DNA from: a virus
Virus record (IMG/VR): IMGVR_UViG_3300048839_000632
Span: 1 to 35,676 of that record
Strand: one strand, 5' to 3'
Length of the DNA: 35,676 nt
Shown here: positions 22,446 to 34,014 of the stretch, piece after piece
How positions within the stretch are numbered: the first letter of the stretch is position 1
Layout of the letters: each line of letters opens with the position of its first letter
The notes under the pieces: generated by a model
The model's database searches: none
The model's input: only the letters and a program-made list of their open reading frames with translations
Told to the model about the DNA's origin: nothing
Translations under genes and position numbers: made by a program

Positions 22446-25328
22446 TTATCTGATTGCTCCTGCTTCAACATCTGCAACCTCTGCCTGTTTATCAGTAACT
22501 GAAACCACATCAATTACTGGCTTTGGCATCTGCCTGATGGCATCAATTAAACCAGCTCCAATTCCAACTCGATCCTCTATAGGGGTTGATAAGTAGGTTG
22601 CTGTGAATCCTCCATCTGCAAAAGGCAGCGGTTTGCCTTGCCTGTAATCCTCCAGGCCTGCAATGATTGGAGCTGTGGTTGGATCATTGATCATCCAGTT
22701 TGGAGAGATCCATTCCGGGCCTGCCTCTCCGATCAATCCCAATTTAGGAACCAATGCAGGCCCTCCAGATGCAAATGTTGTGAGTCCTCCCTCTGCAAAT
22801 TCTTTGGTTGAGTTGATCTTTGCAACATTGGCCAATCCTGCTGCAATTGCAGCTCCGGCTGCCAGAGGGCCTAAAATCCATCCTGCAACCGGGATCGCTG
22901 ATGCTGATGAATAGGCTGCAGTTGCTGATTTATAGGTGTCAATCAGGGCCTGAGCAGATGCAATGATTTTATATTCAGTTGATCCTTTTTTCAGGAGCGC
23001 TGAAACATTGGCCAGCATTCCCTGAGTTGCTGATAAAGTATTCTCAATGGTTTGATTTGCCAGCTGCTGCTTTGCCTTTTCATATTTGGCAGTAATGGCC
23101 AGGGTATCCGCTCCGCTCTTTTCAGCATTGAGCAGCTCTGCCTGATATCCAGATTCCAGCAGGGCCAGTTTATTCTCATATTCCAACTCCGGAGGAGATG
23201 CCTCCAGAGCCAGCTGCCTGGCTGCCAATTGAGCCTGAGTTGCATCATAGGAATTTTTGTAAGTAAGATCCGCAACTGCCAGGCCATGCTCTGCCAGGAT
23301 CTCCATTTCCTTTGTATGGCTTTCAACCTTGATCAGAGTTTTCTGCTCCTCAGTCAATCCCTCAGCTGCCAGATCTTGATCTCTCTTTGCCTTGAGTACT
23401 GCCAGCTCCTGATTGGCCTGATCGTTTATTATTTTCAGATTGATGATGAATCTCTCCTGATCGGTTTTGGCTTTTGCCAGGCCTGCAGCATTGAGATTGT
23501 TCTGGATGTTGATCTGAGATTGGATCCTGAAATTAGCCTCCTCTTGATCATATTTTGCATCAATCTCGAGCTGCTTTTTTCTGCTCTCCTCTCTGAGCAG
23601 GGCCTCCAGTTTTTTCCTTTGCTCTCCGCTTACTTTGATCGCTGCCAATTTATCTGCCAGAGCAGCCTGCTCCTTTTGCAGCTCCTGAGTTCTGGGATCA
23701 GATCCTCCTGAAATTTGGAGATCCCTGATCTGCTTATCAGCATCAGCCTGCTCCTTTGCAGCAGTTATGGCTGCAGCCTTTGCAGCATCTGCAGCAGCTT
23801 TGGCTTTGGCAGCCTTATCATCATCAATTTTTTTCTGATCATCAGCTCGTTTTTTTGCCTCTCTCAATGAGATGGCTGTGATCTCCGTTTGATTATCGAT
23901 TACTGCAGCCCGGTAATCATCCAGCTGTTTTTGCTGATCCTCTGAGAGCTTTCCATTTTCTTTGCGGAGGATCTCCAGATTCTCGATTTGCTTTGCCAGG
24001 GTAATATTGGCAGCGGTTAATTTCAACCTCTCGAGCCTGGAGGTTTCCTGGCCAGCTGCCTGAGCCAGTTTGATCTCTCTGTCATATCTGGCAGCAACTC
24101 CATCAGCGATTTTTTGCTGATCTTTAATTCCCTGCTCCGCTTGATTGGCTGCCTCTGAATTAACCAGGCCCATGGCAACTCCCAGAGCTTTAATTCCATC
24201 GATGAGCAGAAACAATGGAGCAAATGCCAGTTTGATTGCAGATCCAAATATTCCCAGGGAATCAATTATATCAGTTACTTTCTGCTTTGTTTCTTTGAAA
24301 TGGAGGATCAGCTCAACCAGCAGCAGAACCAGCAATCCAATCCCGGTTCCTGCCAGGGCCAATCTAAACAATTTCATTGCTCCGGTTGAGGATCCAACTG
24401 CCAGAGCATAAAGCGATTGAGCTGCAGATGTTGCTTTGAGTGCAACCGTTGAATCCTTTTGCAGGATATGGCTTATCTCCGTTAATGAGTTCAAAACTGC
24501 CATTGATGCCTGAACCTTTACCAATACAGCCATCAGCTCCTTTTGCTCTCCTCCAAAGAGAGCAGCGGATCCCTGGGCCAGAGTAAATCCAGCAGCAACT
24601 CCTTTGGCTCCCTGCACAATTGATAATAGGGTTGATTCTCCATCTGCCAGATTTTTTACAGATGTATTGAGTTCTGTGAGCTTATCCTGAGCCTCTGCAG
24701 CTTTCTCAATCAGCTCTCTGCCTATGAGGGAATTTAGGCCTCCCTGTTTGGCTGCCTCATCTTTCAGCTCCTTAATTGCTTTTTTTAAATCTCCAACTCC
24801 AGCAGTCGCAATTGTACTGGCAATCTCGGATTTATCTTTCATTTCAGTTAATGCAGCTCCCAGGCTTTTGATGGCTCCGCTTTCATCAATGGCTCCTTTG
24901 ATCCTGCTCTGGAATAGGGATGGCTGTTTTTGCCGGATATCGATTTCCTGCTGCAGGAGAGAGTTGAGTTTGGTTTCAACCTCTGCAAACTCATTGGATC
25001 CGATTACAGAATTTTTCAGCTCCAGCTGAGTTGCTTTGATTTGTTGCTGCAGCTCTCCAAAGGATCCCTCAGCAAATTTGGCTCCGGAGTTTACTCCTCC
25101 CAGGGCCTGAGTTTGTGCTTTGGTTGCATCCTGGAGCAATTTAATCTCCTGCTTTAAAGCCTGAGAGCGAACCTCCAGCTCCTCAAATTTCTGGGATCCT
25201 TTCTCAGTATTTTCAAATTCCTTTGTTGTTTCCTTGAGAGCATCCTTCATTGCTTTAATAGTGGGCAATGCCTTTGCTGCATCCAGCTCCAGGATAAACA
25301 GAGCTTTTCTGGTTTGTGAGTCTGCCAT
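22446..25328 (-). CDS. Tail tape measure protein
   Basis: This 960-residue protein is the largest in the genome: helical throughout, with long Lys/Glu/Gln coiled coils (20-130, 400-780), hydrophobic segments at about 321-344 and 362-386, and a Gly/Ala-rich hydrophobic region near the C-terminus (W-I-L-G-P-L-A-A-G-A-A-I-A-A-G-L) before a folded end. These are the marks of tape measure proteins, which set tail length and enter the host membrane. By the usual relation of about 0.15 nm per residue the tail would be about 140 nm. The start overlaps the previous stop (TAATG). Confidence 0.9.
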   Translation of the reverse strand: MADSQTRKALFILELDAAKALPTIKAMKDALKETTKEFENTEKGSQKFEELEVRSQALKQEIKLLQDATKAQTQALGGVNSGAKFAEGSFGELQQQIKATQLELKNSVIGSNEFAEVETKLNSLLQQEIDIRQKQPSLFQSRIKGAIDESGAIKSLGAALTEMKDKSEIASTIATAGVGDLKKAIKELKDEAAKQGGLNSLIGRELIEKAAEAQDKLTELNTSVKNLADGESTLLSIVQGAKGVAAGFTLAQGSAALFGGEQKELMAVLVKVQASMAVLNSLTEISHILQKDSTVALKATSAAQSLYALAVGSSTGAMKLFRLALAGTGIGLLVLLLVELILHFKETKQKVTDIIDSLGIFGSAIKLAFAPLFLLIDGIKALGVAMGLVNSEAANQAEQGIKDQQKIADGVAARYDREIKLAQAAGQETSRLERLKLTAANITLAKQIENLEILRKENGKLSEDQQKQLDDYRAAVIDNQTEITAISLREAKKRADDQKKIDDDKAAKAKAAADAAKAAAITAAKEQADADKQIRDLQISGGSDPRTQELQKEQAALADKLAAIKVSGEQRKKLEALLREESRKKQLEIDAKYDQEEANFRIQSQINIQNNLNAAGLAKAKTDQERFIINLKIINDQANQELAVLKAKRDQDLAAEGLTEEQKTLIKVESHTKEMEILAEHGLAVADLTYKNSYDATQAQLAARQLALEASPPELEYENKLALLESGYQAELLNAEKSGADTLAITAKYEKAKQQLANQTIENTLSATQGMLANVSALLKKGSTEYKIIASAQALIDTYKSATAAYSSASAIPVAGWILGPLAAGAAIAAGLANVAKINSTKEFAEGGLTTFASGGPALVPKLGLIGEAGPEWISPNWMINDPTTAPIIAGLEDYRQGKPLPFADGGFTATYLSTPIEDRVGIGAGLIDAIRQMPKPVIDVVSVTDKQAEVADVEAGAIR

Positions 25329-28172: not shown

Positions 28173-28583
28173 TTATGGAATTGAAACTGGATATTTCGCT
28201 CCAGGTAAAAACTTAAAATCAACTTTCTCTGCAAACTTCATCCCTCTGATCCGCTTTGCATAAATACTCTCATGCTCAATGGGAATAACTATATCATAGT
28301 CGCTCATGGCTCTATAATTTCCATTTACCCGGGATCCAAAAACATAAATTTCCGCTCCAGGATAAACTGAGCGGATCTGCTCTGCAATTTTGAGCAGTAC
28401 TTTTTTATTTCCCTCTGATAGCTCATCAAAGTTTTTGGCAGGAGAATGGATCTCAGTTCTGGAATGATAATCCTTTGCATGGCTCTGCTTTGTTTCAGGC
28501 CTATCTGCCAGGCTCCAGGTTTTTGGATTTGTATTGAGCAGGATCTCCTGCATCTGCTCATCTGTTGATTTATCGTTGCTCAT
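28173..28583 (-). CDS. Nucleotidyltransferase-fold protein (MNT-like)
   Basis: In this 136-residue protein the motif V-F-G-S-R-V-N-G-N-Y-R-A-M-S-D95-Y-D97-I-V-I with D122 in V-D-F-K-F is the complete catalytic set of Pol-beta-type minimal nucleotidyltransferases (G-S, D-x-D and third Asp). Residues 1-55 are a polar extension with no clear fold. Such domains transfer nucleotides to proteins, RNA or small molecules and are known as antitoxins and defence factors. No toxin partner (HEPN or alpha/beta) is beside it; both neighbours are tail proteins. Confidence 0.75.
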   Translation of the reverse strand: MSNDKSTDEQMQEILLNTNPKTWSLADRPETKQSHAKDYHSRTEIHSPAKNFDELSEGNKKVLLKIAEQIRSVYPGAEIYVFGSRVNGNYRAMSDYDIVIPIEHESIYAKRIRGMKFAEKVDFKFLPGAKYPVSIP

Positions 28584-30068: not shown

Positions 30069-30578
30069 TTATTTCACTTTATCGAAACCCTGGAGGATCT
30101 CCGATTGTACGAATGATAAAAATTTGGATCCAAATGTACCTATAAAGGCATCAATCCGCTTATCTGTAATGACTGAGGTAATGATTCCGGTTGGTTTCTG
30201 TAATCTGTATATCATATTTCCCTCCTGATGGATTCTCCTGGCAATCACATAAGCCAATCCGATATAATGATAATACTTAATTTCTCCTTTTGTGTTTCCT
30301 TTTGGCTTTATTCCTTTGGCAAAAATCCATCTCAGGATAATTGATTGGAGAGTTTGCCCTCCGGAATTTCCTTTCTGTGATGGCCCTCTGCCAGTATCCA
30401 GGGCCATGATGTAATCAGCAGCCCAGATTGTGAATCCTGTAGGCCTTATATCAGTAGTTATGGAATCAATTGTCATTCCAGTAACTCTCTGGCCATTTGA
30501 GAGCATCCTGGAGATGATCTCTCCGGTAATCGCTGAGGAGAGCTGAATTAATTCCTCTCTGAAATCCAGATTTAGCAT
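30069..30578 (-). CDS. HK97 gp10-like head-tail/tail completion protein
   Basis: I chose the ATG at 30578 because it overlaps the end of the previous gene (ATGCTAA); a longer start lies within it. In this 169-residue protein, A-A-D-Y-I-M-A-L-D-T-G-R-G-P near 54-67 and A-Y-V-I-A-R-R-I-H-Q-E-G-N near 110-122 match the core (edge loop and C-terminal helix) of HK97 gp10-like proteins that complete the tail or neck. The neighbour upstream looks like a tail terminator, which fits. Confidence 0.7.
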   Translation of the reverse strand: MLNLDFREELIQLSSAITGEIISRMLSNGQRVTGMTIDSITTDIRPTGFTIWAADYIMALDTGRGPSQKGNSGGQTLQSIILRWIFAKGIKPKGNTKGEIKYYHYIGLAYVIARRIHQEGNMIYRLQKPTGIITSVITDKRIDAFIGTFGSKFLSFVQSEILQGFDKVK

Positions 30579-30985
30579 TTTGAGAATGGTTCCTTTAACT
30601 GAACATAAACCCGGCAATTCATACCATAATAATTATCAGCCAGGAAATTGTAAAAGGGCTCCTTTTGCATCCTGGAAACCTCTTTCACTTTTACATGCTT
30701 TGCCAGGGCCTGCTCAAATAATAAAGCATATCCTCTGGCCTGATCGATGTAAGCCTGCTCCTGAGCTGTTCCTGGCTCCATCTCTCCTGGAATGGAGAAT
30801 GAAAGCACACAATCATAAACAGTAAGGATTGAGAGCGATTTATCAAAGGAATCATTTTCAATTACAGGATACAGCCAAACAAAAGGGCCTTTCCCATCAT
30901 AGATATTTTGATTTGGTTTCCTGCCATTATCAAAAGGCAGTTTGATTGATGCCTCAATTATTTCTCTGATTATTGGAACGATCAT
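30572..30985 (-). CDS. Tail terminator/completion-like protein
   Basis: This 137-residue mixed alpha/beta protein starts I-V-P-I-I-R-E-I-I-E with a central L-S-I-L-T-V-Y-D-C-V-L-S-F-S-I-P strand pair and a helix Q-A-R-G-Y-A-L-L-F-E-Q-A-L-A-K near 82-96. Size, fold pattern and position before the gp10-like gene fit a tail terminator (gpU-like). The start overlaps the TGA of the -1 frame extension upstream (ATGA at 30982-30985), which supports translation of that extension. Confidence 0.55.
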   Translation of the reverse strand: MIVPIIREIIEASIKLPFDNGRKPNQNIYDGKGPFVWLYPVIENDSFDKSLSILTVYDCVLSFSIPGEMEPGTAQEQAYIDQARGYALLFEQALAKHVKVKEVSRMQKEPFYNFLADNYYGMNCRVYVQLKEPFSKC

Positions 30986-31260
30986 TTCCGGCCCGGTTTA
31001 GTATGTTTCCTGATATGAATTTCATGCAGTTTTCTCTGATATTCGGAATCTGTTTTGAACAGCAGCAGCTTTGCCTTTACTGAATTGTACTGCATTTTCA
31101 GAACCGTTTCCCATTTGAGAATATCTCCTCCTGCCAATGCATCAACCAAATTCATTACTCCAAACTTTTTGAATTTATCAATCCCTGCCTCCTTTTGCTC
31201 TGAGGTGTACGATGGCTTTAAATTTTTTGATTCCCAGCTGATGATTTTACCGATCTCAGA
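30982..31260 (-). CDS. -1 frameshift extension of the tail assembly chaperone
   Basis: Starting from the T9 run at 31268-31260, the -1 frame is open for 92 codons and ends in a TGA that forms ATGA with the next start. Its residues (S-E-I-G-K-I-I-S-W-E-S ... L-V-D-A-L-A-G-G-D-I-L-K-W-E-T-V) look like a folded helical protein. There is no start codon before residue 36. A -1 slip on the T run yields a fusion of about 288 residues, just as gpG/gpGT is made in many tailed phages. Confidence 0.65.
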   Translation of the reverse strand, partial: SEIGKIISWESKNLKPSYTSEQKEAGIDKFKKFGVMNLVDALAGGDILKWETVLKMQYNSVKAKLLLFKTDSEYQRKLHEIHIRKHTKPGRK

Positions 31261-31847
31261 AAAAAAAACCTCCCGGCTGAATATACATCCAGGAAATTAC
31301 ATTGGAGGATCATCTCAGAAAAAGTTTTCAACTGCTCAGAATCCAGCGGAGCCTCGTAAAAACCAGGATAAGCATAAACAGCAACTGCCATCGGAGCGAT
31401 CTTGAGCATATCATGAGGCTTTCCCAGATGTTTGTTGATCTCCTCCTGGAGCATTACTTTCTGGCCAAAGGTTTGCAATCCCAGATTTGTTGGTAATGTG
31501 ATATTTTTTTCTCCAATCTTGATGCTCTTTGGCATTGGCAACTCTGCCAGGTTTGGAATTTCGCTGAGGAATTTGATATGAGATGAAATGTTTGCATCAA
31601 CATCTCCAATCGCATTAAACCAAACTTTATGAGATACTCCAGAGAGGATCTCCATCAGCATAAAAATATCATCTTTATCCTTTGTAAACCAATCAATGAA
31701 AAGCCTGGAGCCTTGTTCAAAAGTTAAATCCTGCCAGGAGGTTGGTAAATCAAACTCATAATCATGAATGGCTGGAGATCCTGGTTCATTTTCAACCAAT
31801 ATATCTCCAATCTGGATGAGGGATCTTAATTTGTATGGAATTTTCAT
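31218..31847 (-). CDS. Probable tail assembly chaperone (short form)
   Basis: This 209-residue protein contains D-L-P-T-S-W-Q-D-L-T-F-E-Q near 33-45 and L-M-E-I-L-S-G near 64-70, a pattern (proline-rich start, then W-x-D/E-L/V-T-x2-Q) that I associate with tail-chaperone-like proteins of Bacteroidota phages. Codons 194-196 are TTT TTT TTT; after them the frame ends in 13 residues, while the -1 frame continues for 92. The start is fixed by CAACCCCTGCC. Against this call, the tape measure lies 6 kb away, whereas most chaperone genes adjoin it. Confidence 0.55.
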   Translation of the reverse strand: MKIPYKLRSLIQIGDILVENEPGSPAIHDYEFDLPTSWQDLTFEQGSRLFIDWFTKDKDDIFMLMEILSGVSHKVWFNAIGDVDANISSHIKFLSEIPNLAELPMPKSIKIGEKNITLPTNLGLQTFGQKVMLQEEINKHLGKPHDMLKIAPMAVAVYAYPGFYEAPLDSEQLKTFSEMILQCNFLDVYSAGRFFFLRSVKSSAGNQKI

Positions 31848-32062: not shown

Positions 32063-33283
32063 TTATCTCCGATTTCTCCGGATTAATTTTGATCTGGGAG
32101 ATTTAATAACATTGGATCCGGTAATCAAATGATAGGATCCATATCTGCCAGCATCCATCCCATCATCCCAGAGCTTTACTGGCTGATCCAGGATTGCCAT
32201 GGTATGAGGATTTTTTTTCCAGGAGTATTTTTTAGCCTCTTTGAGCAGGCCTTCGGATTCCTCTGTGATGCTGAGGCCTGCTGCTTTTACCTTGCCAATT
32301 CCAGCGCTTACATCGTTCTCAGCAGCCTCAATTGTGAATCCAGCATCAGAGATCTCTGAGATCAGATCCGGCCTGGATGGATCAGCCCAAATCATTACAT
32401 CTCTCTGGATGTTTCTCTCAATCATCAGAGCGATGATATCCTTTCCAGTTAAATAGGATTGATAAATTTCCTGCTGCCAAACCAATCCAACTCCATCAGT
32501 ATATCCGCATTTTACCAATGCAGTTGGATGATTGAATCCAAAATCCAATCCATAAGCAACCTCCTGCATCTCTGGGAATACCGGGATCTTTCTGTGATGA
32601 GGATAAATTTTCTCCAGTTTGATGGCTCGTTTTCCCAGGCCATATACTTGCCAATACTCTGGATCTGATTCCTCCAGGGCCTCAATCTCTCTGATTGAAT
32701 CCTCATCCAGGAACGGATTATCCAAATAAGTTGAGGGAATGATGAGAGATTCTGGCCTCTCATAAACTCTGGTATAAAGCCAATGATCATCATCCGGAGG
32801 ATTGAAATCCAGAAACAGCTGATTTTTCCTGCCATCCAGAGAGGGATTTGTGAGCCTGAGGTTGAATTGTACAAAATCATTATAAAAAAACTCATCAGCC
32901 TCATTCATCCAAACATAATTATGCCTCCGGCCTTTGATCTTTGTACTCTGATCAACTGAGTTGAAATAATAAATGTTTGAATTCAGGAAATAAATTCCCA
33001 CCGTTTTGTTGTGTTTATCCTCCTCATAAATATCATACAGTTTGAGGAAATCAACAAAATCCTTTTCTGCGGAGGCCTTGAGAGCTGGCCTGGTTTTCCT
33101 GGATACTGTGAAAATTTTGTTCTGCTCCTCCAGGCCCTTGAGGATAAAATGCTGGCAGAGTGAGAATGTTTTTGTACTCCTGGCAGATCCCTCCAATATA
33201 ATAAACCGATTTTTTTGAGCCTTGATGAGCTTGTTTAAAATCGGAGATCCTTTGAGATGGAGTTTGTGCTTTTCAATGGCCAT
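32063..33283 (-). CDS. terL: Terminase large subunit
   Basis: The ATG at 33283 (M-A-I-E-K-H-K-L) directly follows the small-subunit stop (TAG-G-ATG) and gives 406 residues. Walker A is E-G-S-A-R-S-T-K-T (31-39), Walker B is V-W-M-N-E-A-D-E (124-131) and motif III is F-L-D-F-N-P-P (157-163). The RNase H-like nuclease acids are D247 (G-L-D-F-G-F), D301 (A-D-P-S-R) and D377 (D-G-M-D-A-G-R). The arrangement is that of the PBSX/Terminase_3 type, which often packages by the headful route and fits the circular map. It cuts and pumps DNA into proheads. Confidence 0.93.
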   Translation of the reverse strand: MAIEKHKLHLKGSPILNKLIKAQKNRFIILEGSARSTKTFSLCQHFILKGLEEQNKIFTVSRKTRPALKASAEKDFVDFLKLYDIYEEDKHNKTVGIYFLNSNIYYFNSVDQSTKIKGRRHNYVWMNEADEFFYNDFVQFNLRLTNPSLDGRKNQLFLDFNPPDDDHWLYTRVYERPESLIIPSTYLDNPFLDEDSIREIEALEESDPEYWQVYGLGKRAIKLEKIYPHHRKIPVFPEMQEVAYGLDFGFNHPTALVKCGYTDGVGLVWQQEIYQSYLTGKDIIALMIERNIQRDVMIWADPSRPDLISEISDAGFTIEAAENDVSAGIGKVKAAGLSITEESEGLLKEAKKYSWKKNPHTMAILDQPVKLWDDGMDAGRYGSYHLITGSNVIKSPRSKLIRRNRR

Positions 33284-33284
33284 C

Positions 33285-33800
33285 CTATTTCTTTGCTCTG
33301 GCTTTTTTCTTTGCTCTGGCTTTTGGCTCAATGATCTCAACCACAACTCCAGTAATTACTTTATCATTGCTCCGGAGATCAACCTTTATCTGATCCGCAA
33401 TTCCCAGGGCATCTCTCTGCATTTGTACTCCTGCCTGCAGCATGAGCCTGGCCTCATAAACCGGGATCTCAGATTTTTTCAATTTATCCTTTGTGATCAA
33501 TTTAAACCTGGCCATTCCCAGATCAATCAGCTCCTGAGCCAGGGCCAGATGAGCCCGGTTTGCATCCCTTGCAACTGCTTTCATATCATCCAGCAGCTCA
33601 ACCTCTCTCTCCTGATCCCAGACTGAACAGCGATCAACCCAAAAGAATTTACTGCTCCATCGCTCCAGAACTTCTTTGCTTTTTTTTAGCTGATCCGCTG
33701 CTTTCTGCAGGGATCTGGCAGCTCCCATGGAGAGATAAACTGTAAATGCTTCATAAGCCTTTACAGATTCCTCTGGCAGTTTGTTGTAGTCTTTATTCAT
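33285..33800 (-). CDS. terS: Terminase small subunit-like protein
   Basis: This 171-residue protein starts M-N-K-D-Y-N-K-L-P (a start 6 codons earlier is possible). An N-terminal helix-turn-helix-like segment (A-F-T-V-Y-L ... A-A-R-S-L-Q-K-A-A-D-Q-L-K-K-S-K-E-V) is followed by R-W-S-S-K-F-F-W-V-D-R-C-S-V-W-D, a tryptophan-rich pattern common after the DNA-binding domain of small terminases. A helical oligomerisation region (65-125) and a basic A-R-A-K-K-K-A-R-A-K-K tail follow. It recognises the packaging site. It directly precedes terL. Confidence 0.8.
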   Translation of the reverse strand: MNKDYNKLPEESVKAYEAFTVYLSMGAARSLQKAADQLKKSKEVLERWSSKFFWVDRCSVWDQEREVELLDDMKAVARDANRAHLALAQELIDLGMARFKLITKDKLKKSEIPVYEARLMLQAGVQMQRDALGIADQIKVDLRSNDKVITGVVVEIIEPKARAKKKARAKK

Positions 33801-34014
33801 TGGATGGCAATTTACCACTTATTTGAGTTGGTAATGGAGAATGAACCAAAGAGCATGGAGGCCTGGTTGTAAATGTTCTCCCATCTTTCTGATAAGTGAA
33901 CACAATCCAACCTCCTGCCTTTGTTCCAATCCTTACAACTCCGCAATGTTTGCAGATTGCCCTGGATGCCATCGCTGGAGTATTTACTGCAGCAGCAGCC
34001 CATGAATGCCTCAT
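33793..34014 (-). CDS. Hypothetical small protein with one C-x2-C pair
   Basis: I chose the start at 34014 because it forms ATGA with the upstream stop; a longer frame from 34056 is less likely. The 73-residue protein has A-I-C-K-H-C-G-V-V-R-I-G near 20-31, then T-K-A-G-G-W-I-V-F-T-Y strands, and one further Cys. A zinc-ribbon-like fold with an incomplete ligand set is possible. The function is unknown. Confidence 0.6.
   Translation of the reverse strand: MRHSWAAAAVNTPAMASRAICKHCGVVRIGTKAGGWIVFTYQKDGRTFTTRPPCSLVHSPLPTQISGKLPSNE

Follow-up and report, generated by a model that had tools for sequence, protein, structure and literature searches.

Can a run of nine Ts beside the terminase genes of a virus join two overlapping reading frames into one protein, and what would such a protein do at that place in the genome? 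The question arises in a 35,676-base virus record, IMGVR_UViG_3300048839_000632, analysed here over its whole length (the window), in which all the genes relevant here lie on the minus strand. An initial annotation had described the logic of a G/GT-like frameshift in this gene and had suggested a new family of frameshifted chaperones.

Anatomy of the gene

The gene comprises a short frame (G) and an extension in the -1 frame (T), which together would yield a longer product (GT). The features are as follows.

31218..31847 (-), G frame, short product of 209 aa with an ATG start and a TAA stop 13 codons after the slip site
31260..31268 (-), slip site T9, read as TTT TTT TTT in frame 0
31260..31266 (-), in-frame T_TTT_TTT heptamer within the T9 run
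30982..31260 (-), -1 frame extension T, beginning at TCT, with 92 codons before the TGA
30982..31847 (-), GT, the predicted frameshift product of 288 aa

Frame 0 reads AGG TTT TTT TTT CTG across the slip site and continues as LRSVKSSAGNQKI before the TAA at 31220-31218. The -1 frame encodes SEIGKIIS...KPGRK (92 sense codons), includes a GGDILK motif, has its first ATG at its 36th codon and closes with a TGA at 30984-30982, which overlaps the ATG of the next gene (30985-30983) as ATGA. The initial description of a T9 run joining a short frame, stopped 13 codons on, to a 92-codon -1 frame coupled to the next gene was thereby confirmed to the exact coordinate.

Codon usage favoured frame 0 up to the T run and, beyond it, the -1 frame. 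Past the run, the -1 frame scored a log-odds of 0.286 per codon, versus -0.099 and 0.090 for the two other frames, which contain 5 and 7 stops. The probability of 92 open codons arising from base composition alone is P ~0.002. Given this value and the gene-like codon usage, the open -1 frame is more than chance, the decisive test being its conservation in 98 other genes (see below). Computed run-length variants of the window gene showed that the frames would become continuous with either T10 or T7 and that T8 would lead to an immediate stop. The initial annotation had expected T8 or T10 to give a single plain gene; this is correct for T10 (and also for T7) but not for T8.

Detection of relatives

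Relatives were detected with separate protein profiles of G and T, and detection was therefore independent of the T run and of frame. Single-query scans of IMG/VR with the window GT, TerL (terminase large subunit), P0001 and portal returned no usable relatives, with one 6.4-kb contig at most, and a single-sequence scan of genome contigs with the window GT returned none. A weak match led to the Elizabethkingia phage TCUEAP1, in which the T domain is encoded, in one frame, by the gene that immediately follows TerL. The productive route was to align the window T domain with that of the Elizabethkingia phage and then to scan viral contigs. The first such profile scan yielded 11 loci, among them three (L011, L012 and L013) with T9 and the identical -1 offset and two (L015 and L016) with both parts in one frame.

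Further contig scans, about 1000 Bacteroidia genomes and two cultured phages completed the member set, which holds 105 distinct full-length genes with both parts. Of these, 99 encode the two parts in different frames and six in a single frame. The frame-shifted members come from metagenomes, from isolates, including the cultured Nonlabens phages P12024L and P12024S, and from many prophages. Within the order to which genome G205 belongs, the gene was present in 63 of 300 sampled genomes, almost always in two frames; prophages of this kind are thus very common in that order. In both Nonlabens phages the slip site reads ATA CTT TTT TTT TAT (T9), and each deposited pair of genes is one frame-shifted gene.

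L117:3447-4141, P12024L frame-shifted gene, deposited as two hypothetical genes, gp40/gp41
L118:2637-3331, P12024S frame-shifted gene, deposited as two hypothetical genes, gp38/gp39

Clustering at 60% identity gave 36 clusters, 31 of which include frame-shifted members, and these are distributed over the whole tree. The frame-shifted state occurs in both main groups of the tree, and the single-frame state needs just one or two changes (under a midpoint root only). For this reason, loss of the frameshift by fusion would be the simplest reading of the tree as rooted. Separately, we observed three prophages (L154, L181 and L182) in which the G frame stops just short of the expected slip site and no T part was detected; these are perhaps decayed or recombined copies.

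Conservation of the slip site

The offset from G to T is -1 in all 99 frame-shifted members and +1 in none. At the junction, T7 is found in 33 members, T8 in 4, T9 in 59 and T10 in 3, and every one of these runs (99/99) contains the slippery heptamer T_TTT_TTT in frame. When the window sequence is fused in silico at the predicted joint, its alignment to the single-frame members L015 and L016 runs unbroken straight across that joint; both parts are homologous on either side of it. The programmed -1 frameshift is almost certainly real and, as judged by sequence comparison, it is an old device, since the same slip recurs in 99 distinct related phage genes. The frameshift logic proposed at the outset is thus borne out by relatives compared for the run and for both frames. 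Relatives with one uninterrupted frame, which the initial annotation had regarded as evidence against frameshifting, do exist (six at full length and many with a shorter N-terminal part) but do not refute it, because the 99 frame-shifted members carry the site.

These comparisons also bear on two simpler explanations. If the true run in the window were T10, the locus would be a plain single-frame gene altered by an assembly or sequencing error; homopolymers are error-prone and six relatives are indeed single-frame, but 98 other distinct genes, of metagenomic, isolate and prophage origin, show the same -1 offset, which leaves this reading a negligible probability. Alternatively, T could be a separate small gene of 57 aa, initiated at the internal ATG (T codon 36) and unjoined to G, in keeping with the annotation of the Nonlabens phages as two genes. 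However, the 35 residues ahead of that ATG are conserved family-wide (AGI..F..FG), and six relatives encode G and T as one in-frame fusion, which makes an unjoined T very improbable.

Mechanism of slippage

The register of the run was examined together with its length. Every T7, T8 and T10 run is in register 2, and T9 occurs in register 2 (52 members), register 1 (6 members) and register 0 (one member, the window). A heptamer in register 0 requires T9 and one in register 1 requires T8; only T9 was observed in both. All T7 and T8 runs (37/37) have the register in which the heptamer forms. The T7 and T8 members belong mostly to one clade, and these 37 genes are consequently not independent events.

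The confinement of all T7 and T8 runs to the one register that gives T_TTT_TTT favours ribosomal -1 frameshifting over slippage of RNA polymerase, and we infer that the slip takes place at the ribosome itself. Most ribosomes would terminate at the end of G (209 aa), and a minority would slip by -1 on the U_UUU_UUU that the U9 run contains in frame and would thereby produce GT (288 aa) with its T domain. The two proteins would in this way be made in a fixed ratio.

A different mechanism is known from Shigella mxiE, in which transcriptional slippage at a T run brings two overlapping frames together (Baranov 2005, PMC1088944); slippage at runs of nine As or Ts has also been described (Atkins 2016). 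Applied to the window, RNA polymerase would add one U on T9, and the part of the mRNA carrying U10 would be read through into T. The likeness is that a T run links two frames with an effect equivalent to one extra base, and further points in favour are that T9, the classic length, is the commonest run (59/99) and occurs in all three registers, and that no downstream structure able to stall the ribosome was found. The difference is that mxiE slips at transcription, whereas here 37 relatives have just T7 (33) or T8 (4), all in the ribosome's register, so that run length alone is insufficient. We therefore consider polymerase slippage an unlikely explanation of the joint. Ribosomal slipping accounts for every case, and the T9 sites may use both routes. 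Transcriptional slippage as the common mechanism had first been suggested by the exact T9 run in all early members; the T7 and T8 members found later argue against it.

RNA elements around the slip site

A downstream stem-loop or pseudoknot is common, though not universal, at sites of -1 programmed ribosomal frameshifting, which take the form X_XXY_YYZ. No conserved downstream stem-loop was detected over the 99 sites, the mean z being near 0 in a calculation restricted to nested structures.

Upstream of the run, the T7 and T8 genes (L097-L103 and L137-L185) carry an element, GGGTAACGGAGGCNCTGCCC, that ends 11 bases before the Ts. The same element, also written GGGUAACGGAGGCNCUGCCC, is present in 37/37 T7/T8 genes and is rare among T9 genes. 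Within it, the synonymous choice of codon is nearly fixed: ACG in 34/34 genes against a background of 0.20, GAG in 37/37 against 0.33, CTG in 35/37 against 0.28 and CCC in 34/37 against 0.31. Such near-fixed synonymous codons fit the expectation for a programmed site. The element could fold into a GGGUA/UGCCC stem with GGAGG in the loop, and its variants preserve the pairs. From these sequence patterns, it looks like a stimulator that compensates for the shorter run.

Sequence and predicted structure

Searches of the window proteins against Pfam, NCBIfam and PHROGs revealed no functional family match for this gene, and no known tail chaperone family in Pfam, NCBIfam or the functional PHROGs matched the G/T protein in sequence. 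A sequence search of the PDB was likewise without a match. The sequence was thus as unrecognised as the initial annotation had stated. Two PHROGs of 'unknown function' match relatives: phrog_32199 the G part of L109 (E 7e-19) and phrog_28240 the short single-frame homologue from BS-TP3 (E 1.6e-30). Neither detects the window protein and neither records a frameshift.

AlphaFold modelled the window G with a pLDDT of 89.2, and the natural fused member L015 was predicted as one confident fold (pLDDT 91.7, pTM 0.84). Foldseek against the PDB found no match for the fused member and none at E <= 0.001 for G, and structural alignment of the fused member with VIA gave no match. When the G model was compared by VIA with 274 PDB chains, the top row was the HK97 tail assembly chaperone 2OB9, yet with a Z of 2.5, tied with unrelated chains and far below the level of kinship; the alignment (rmsd 3.3 over 58 residues) covers part of G only. 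Matches in BFVD were to uncharacterised phage proteins. Only at E 0.22 and probability 0.14 did a Gordonia 'Pre-TMP frameshift protein' appear there, and it was set aside as a candidate relative on those values.

Genomic position and probable function

The G frame begins 215 bases after the end of TerL, and the TGA of the T frame lies 5654 bases, with several genes between, from the start of the tape measure protein gene (TMP).

33285..33818 (-), terminase small subunit (phrog_6299, E 5.9e-21)
32063..33346 (-), terminase large subunit, directly upstream of G (PHROG phrog_2, E 1.7e-34)
30572..30985 (-), next gene, in the tail completion place (DUF3168/DUF1834 in Bacteroides phages); matched in L012
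30069..30617 (-), HK97 gp10-like gene, by position; same place annotated in BS-TP3 and BU2-1, conserved order
22446..25328 (-), TMP (phrog_1538, E 8.6e-12)

The order TerL, this gene, tail completion, HK97 gp10-like gene, further genes, TMP, protease and capsid is found in the window and in most of the viral contigs tested, and it recurs in the Elizabethkingia phage and in annotated Bacteroides phages. The TerL match is 4.3-4.4 kb ahead of the junction in L061 and L062, where other genes may therefore intervene. Since the order is conserved across relatives, the distance to TMP is a feature of the group, in whose layout the G/T gene heads the tail block. The location next to the terminase and away from TMP, as initially reported, is thus accurate, but this edge of the tail block is usual for the group and the gene is not an isolated outlier. 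No second pair in the style of a frameshift was seen in the window, including the region before TMP, where the abutting gene is a single frame of 664 aa. Also within the tail gene block is a gene with a nucleotidyltransferase domain at 28173-28583 (-) (PF01909, E 9.5e-09).

In lambda, the slip site is G GGA AAG, in contrast to T_TTT_TTT in the present family. The pair resembles lambda gpG/gpGT in having a short product and a predicted minor -1 product with a C-terminal T domain, encoded in the tail gene block. The differences are that no sequence kinship is detectable and that the window gene neighbours the terminase and is separated from the downstream TMP by about 5.6 kb and several genes. 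As the fold match is weak, the chaperone reading depends on the gene's anatomy, namely a short product with a -1 extended form, a place in the tail block and no other such pair in the window. On this footing, the gene pair is probably a tail assembly chaperone of the G/GT kind. Its most likely job would be that of lambda G/GT, with many copies of G and few of GT on the tape measure protein and T recruiting tail tube subunits. We did not file it in a known chaperone family, because both sequence kinship and a position just before TMP were looked for and neither was found. Of the initial suggestion of a new family of frameshifted chaperones, the family and the frameshift are upheld, and the chaperone part derives from anatomy, the best fold match (Z 2.5) being weak.

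The frameshift could be real and the pair nonetheless serve in packaging or head-tail joining. Its place directly after TerL in isolated phages and most contigs would suit such a role, as would the absence of sequence kinship with tail chaperones. Against this, the tail block begins on the gene's other side, the best fold match, though weak, is to a tail chaperone, and in tailed phages a site of this type is usually explained by G/GT frameshifting, a scheme already described (PMC5009743). A packaging or joining function consequently appears rather doubtful. The explanation that we prefer as a whole, namely a ribosomal slip that gives G and a minor GT with the job of a tail chaperone, is a probable one.

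The G/GT-like device is itself already known; the family, its slip site, its position and the upstream element are new to the family databases and the open-access PMC literature searched, where no description of them was found. Most likely, this is a widespread family, previously unnamed in the databases searched, that works like tail chaperone G/GT, the latter being suggested by its anatomy. Existing annotations of the isolated phages examined here either divide the gene in two or call it hypothetical, and pipelines confined to the stretch immediately ahead of the tape measure gene overlook it. Should it prove to be the tail chaperone of Bacteroidota phages, an assembly factor so far missing in a very large phage group would have been identified. 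The natural series of T7, T8, T9 and T10 runs, with and without the upstream element, and of fused genes offers material on how frameshift efficiency is set.

Single-frame, possibly reversed and short relatives

The six members with G and T fused in frame are L015, L016, L022, L025, L062 and L096. Two of them retain a potential slip site. L096, a prophage in G059, has a T7 run with G and T in one frame, and a -1 slip there would lead to an immediate TGA and thus to G alone. L015 (L015:2764) has kept T_TTT_TTT in frame, and its -1 frame closes after 31 codons. In the dnaX scheme the long form is the default, and the anatomy of L096 and L015 resembles such a reversed arrangement, in which slipping would yield the short form.

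More tentatively, the genes might constitute a hitherto unrecognised, Bacteroidota-wide family of frameshift pairs with its own fold and without common descent with known tail chaperones, in which the two-product outcome would come about by interchangeable routes: an unaided long U run (T9/T10), a short run with an upstream hairpin (T7/T8) or the reversed scheme (L096). We regard this wider proposal as possible rather than likely.

L002:2164-2706, L006:44401-44937 and about 40 further loci encode in a single frame a different, shorter N-terminal part followed by the same T domain. Where checked, these short homologues also lie after TerL. One of them, BS-TP3 gp55, is annotated as a 'TrkA-N domain protein'.
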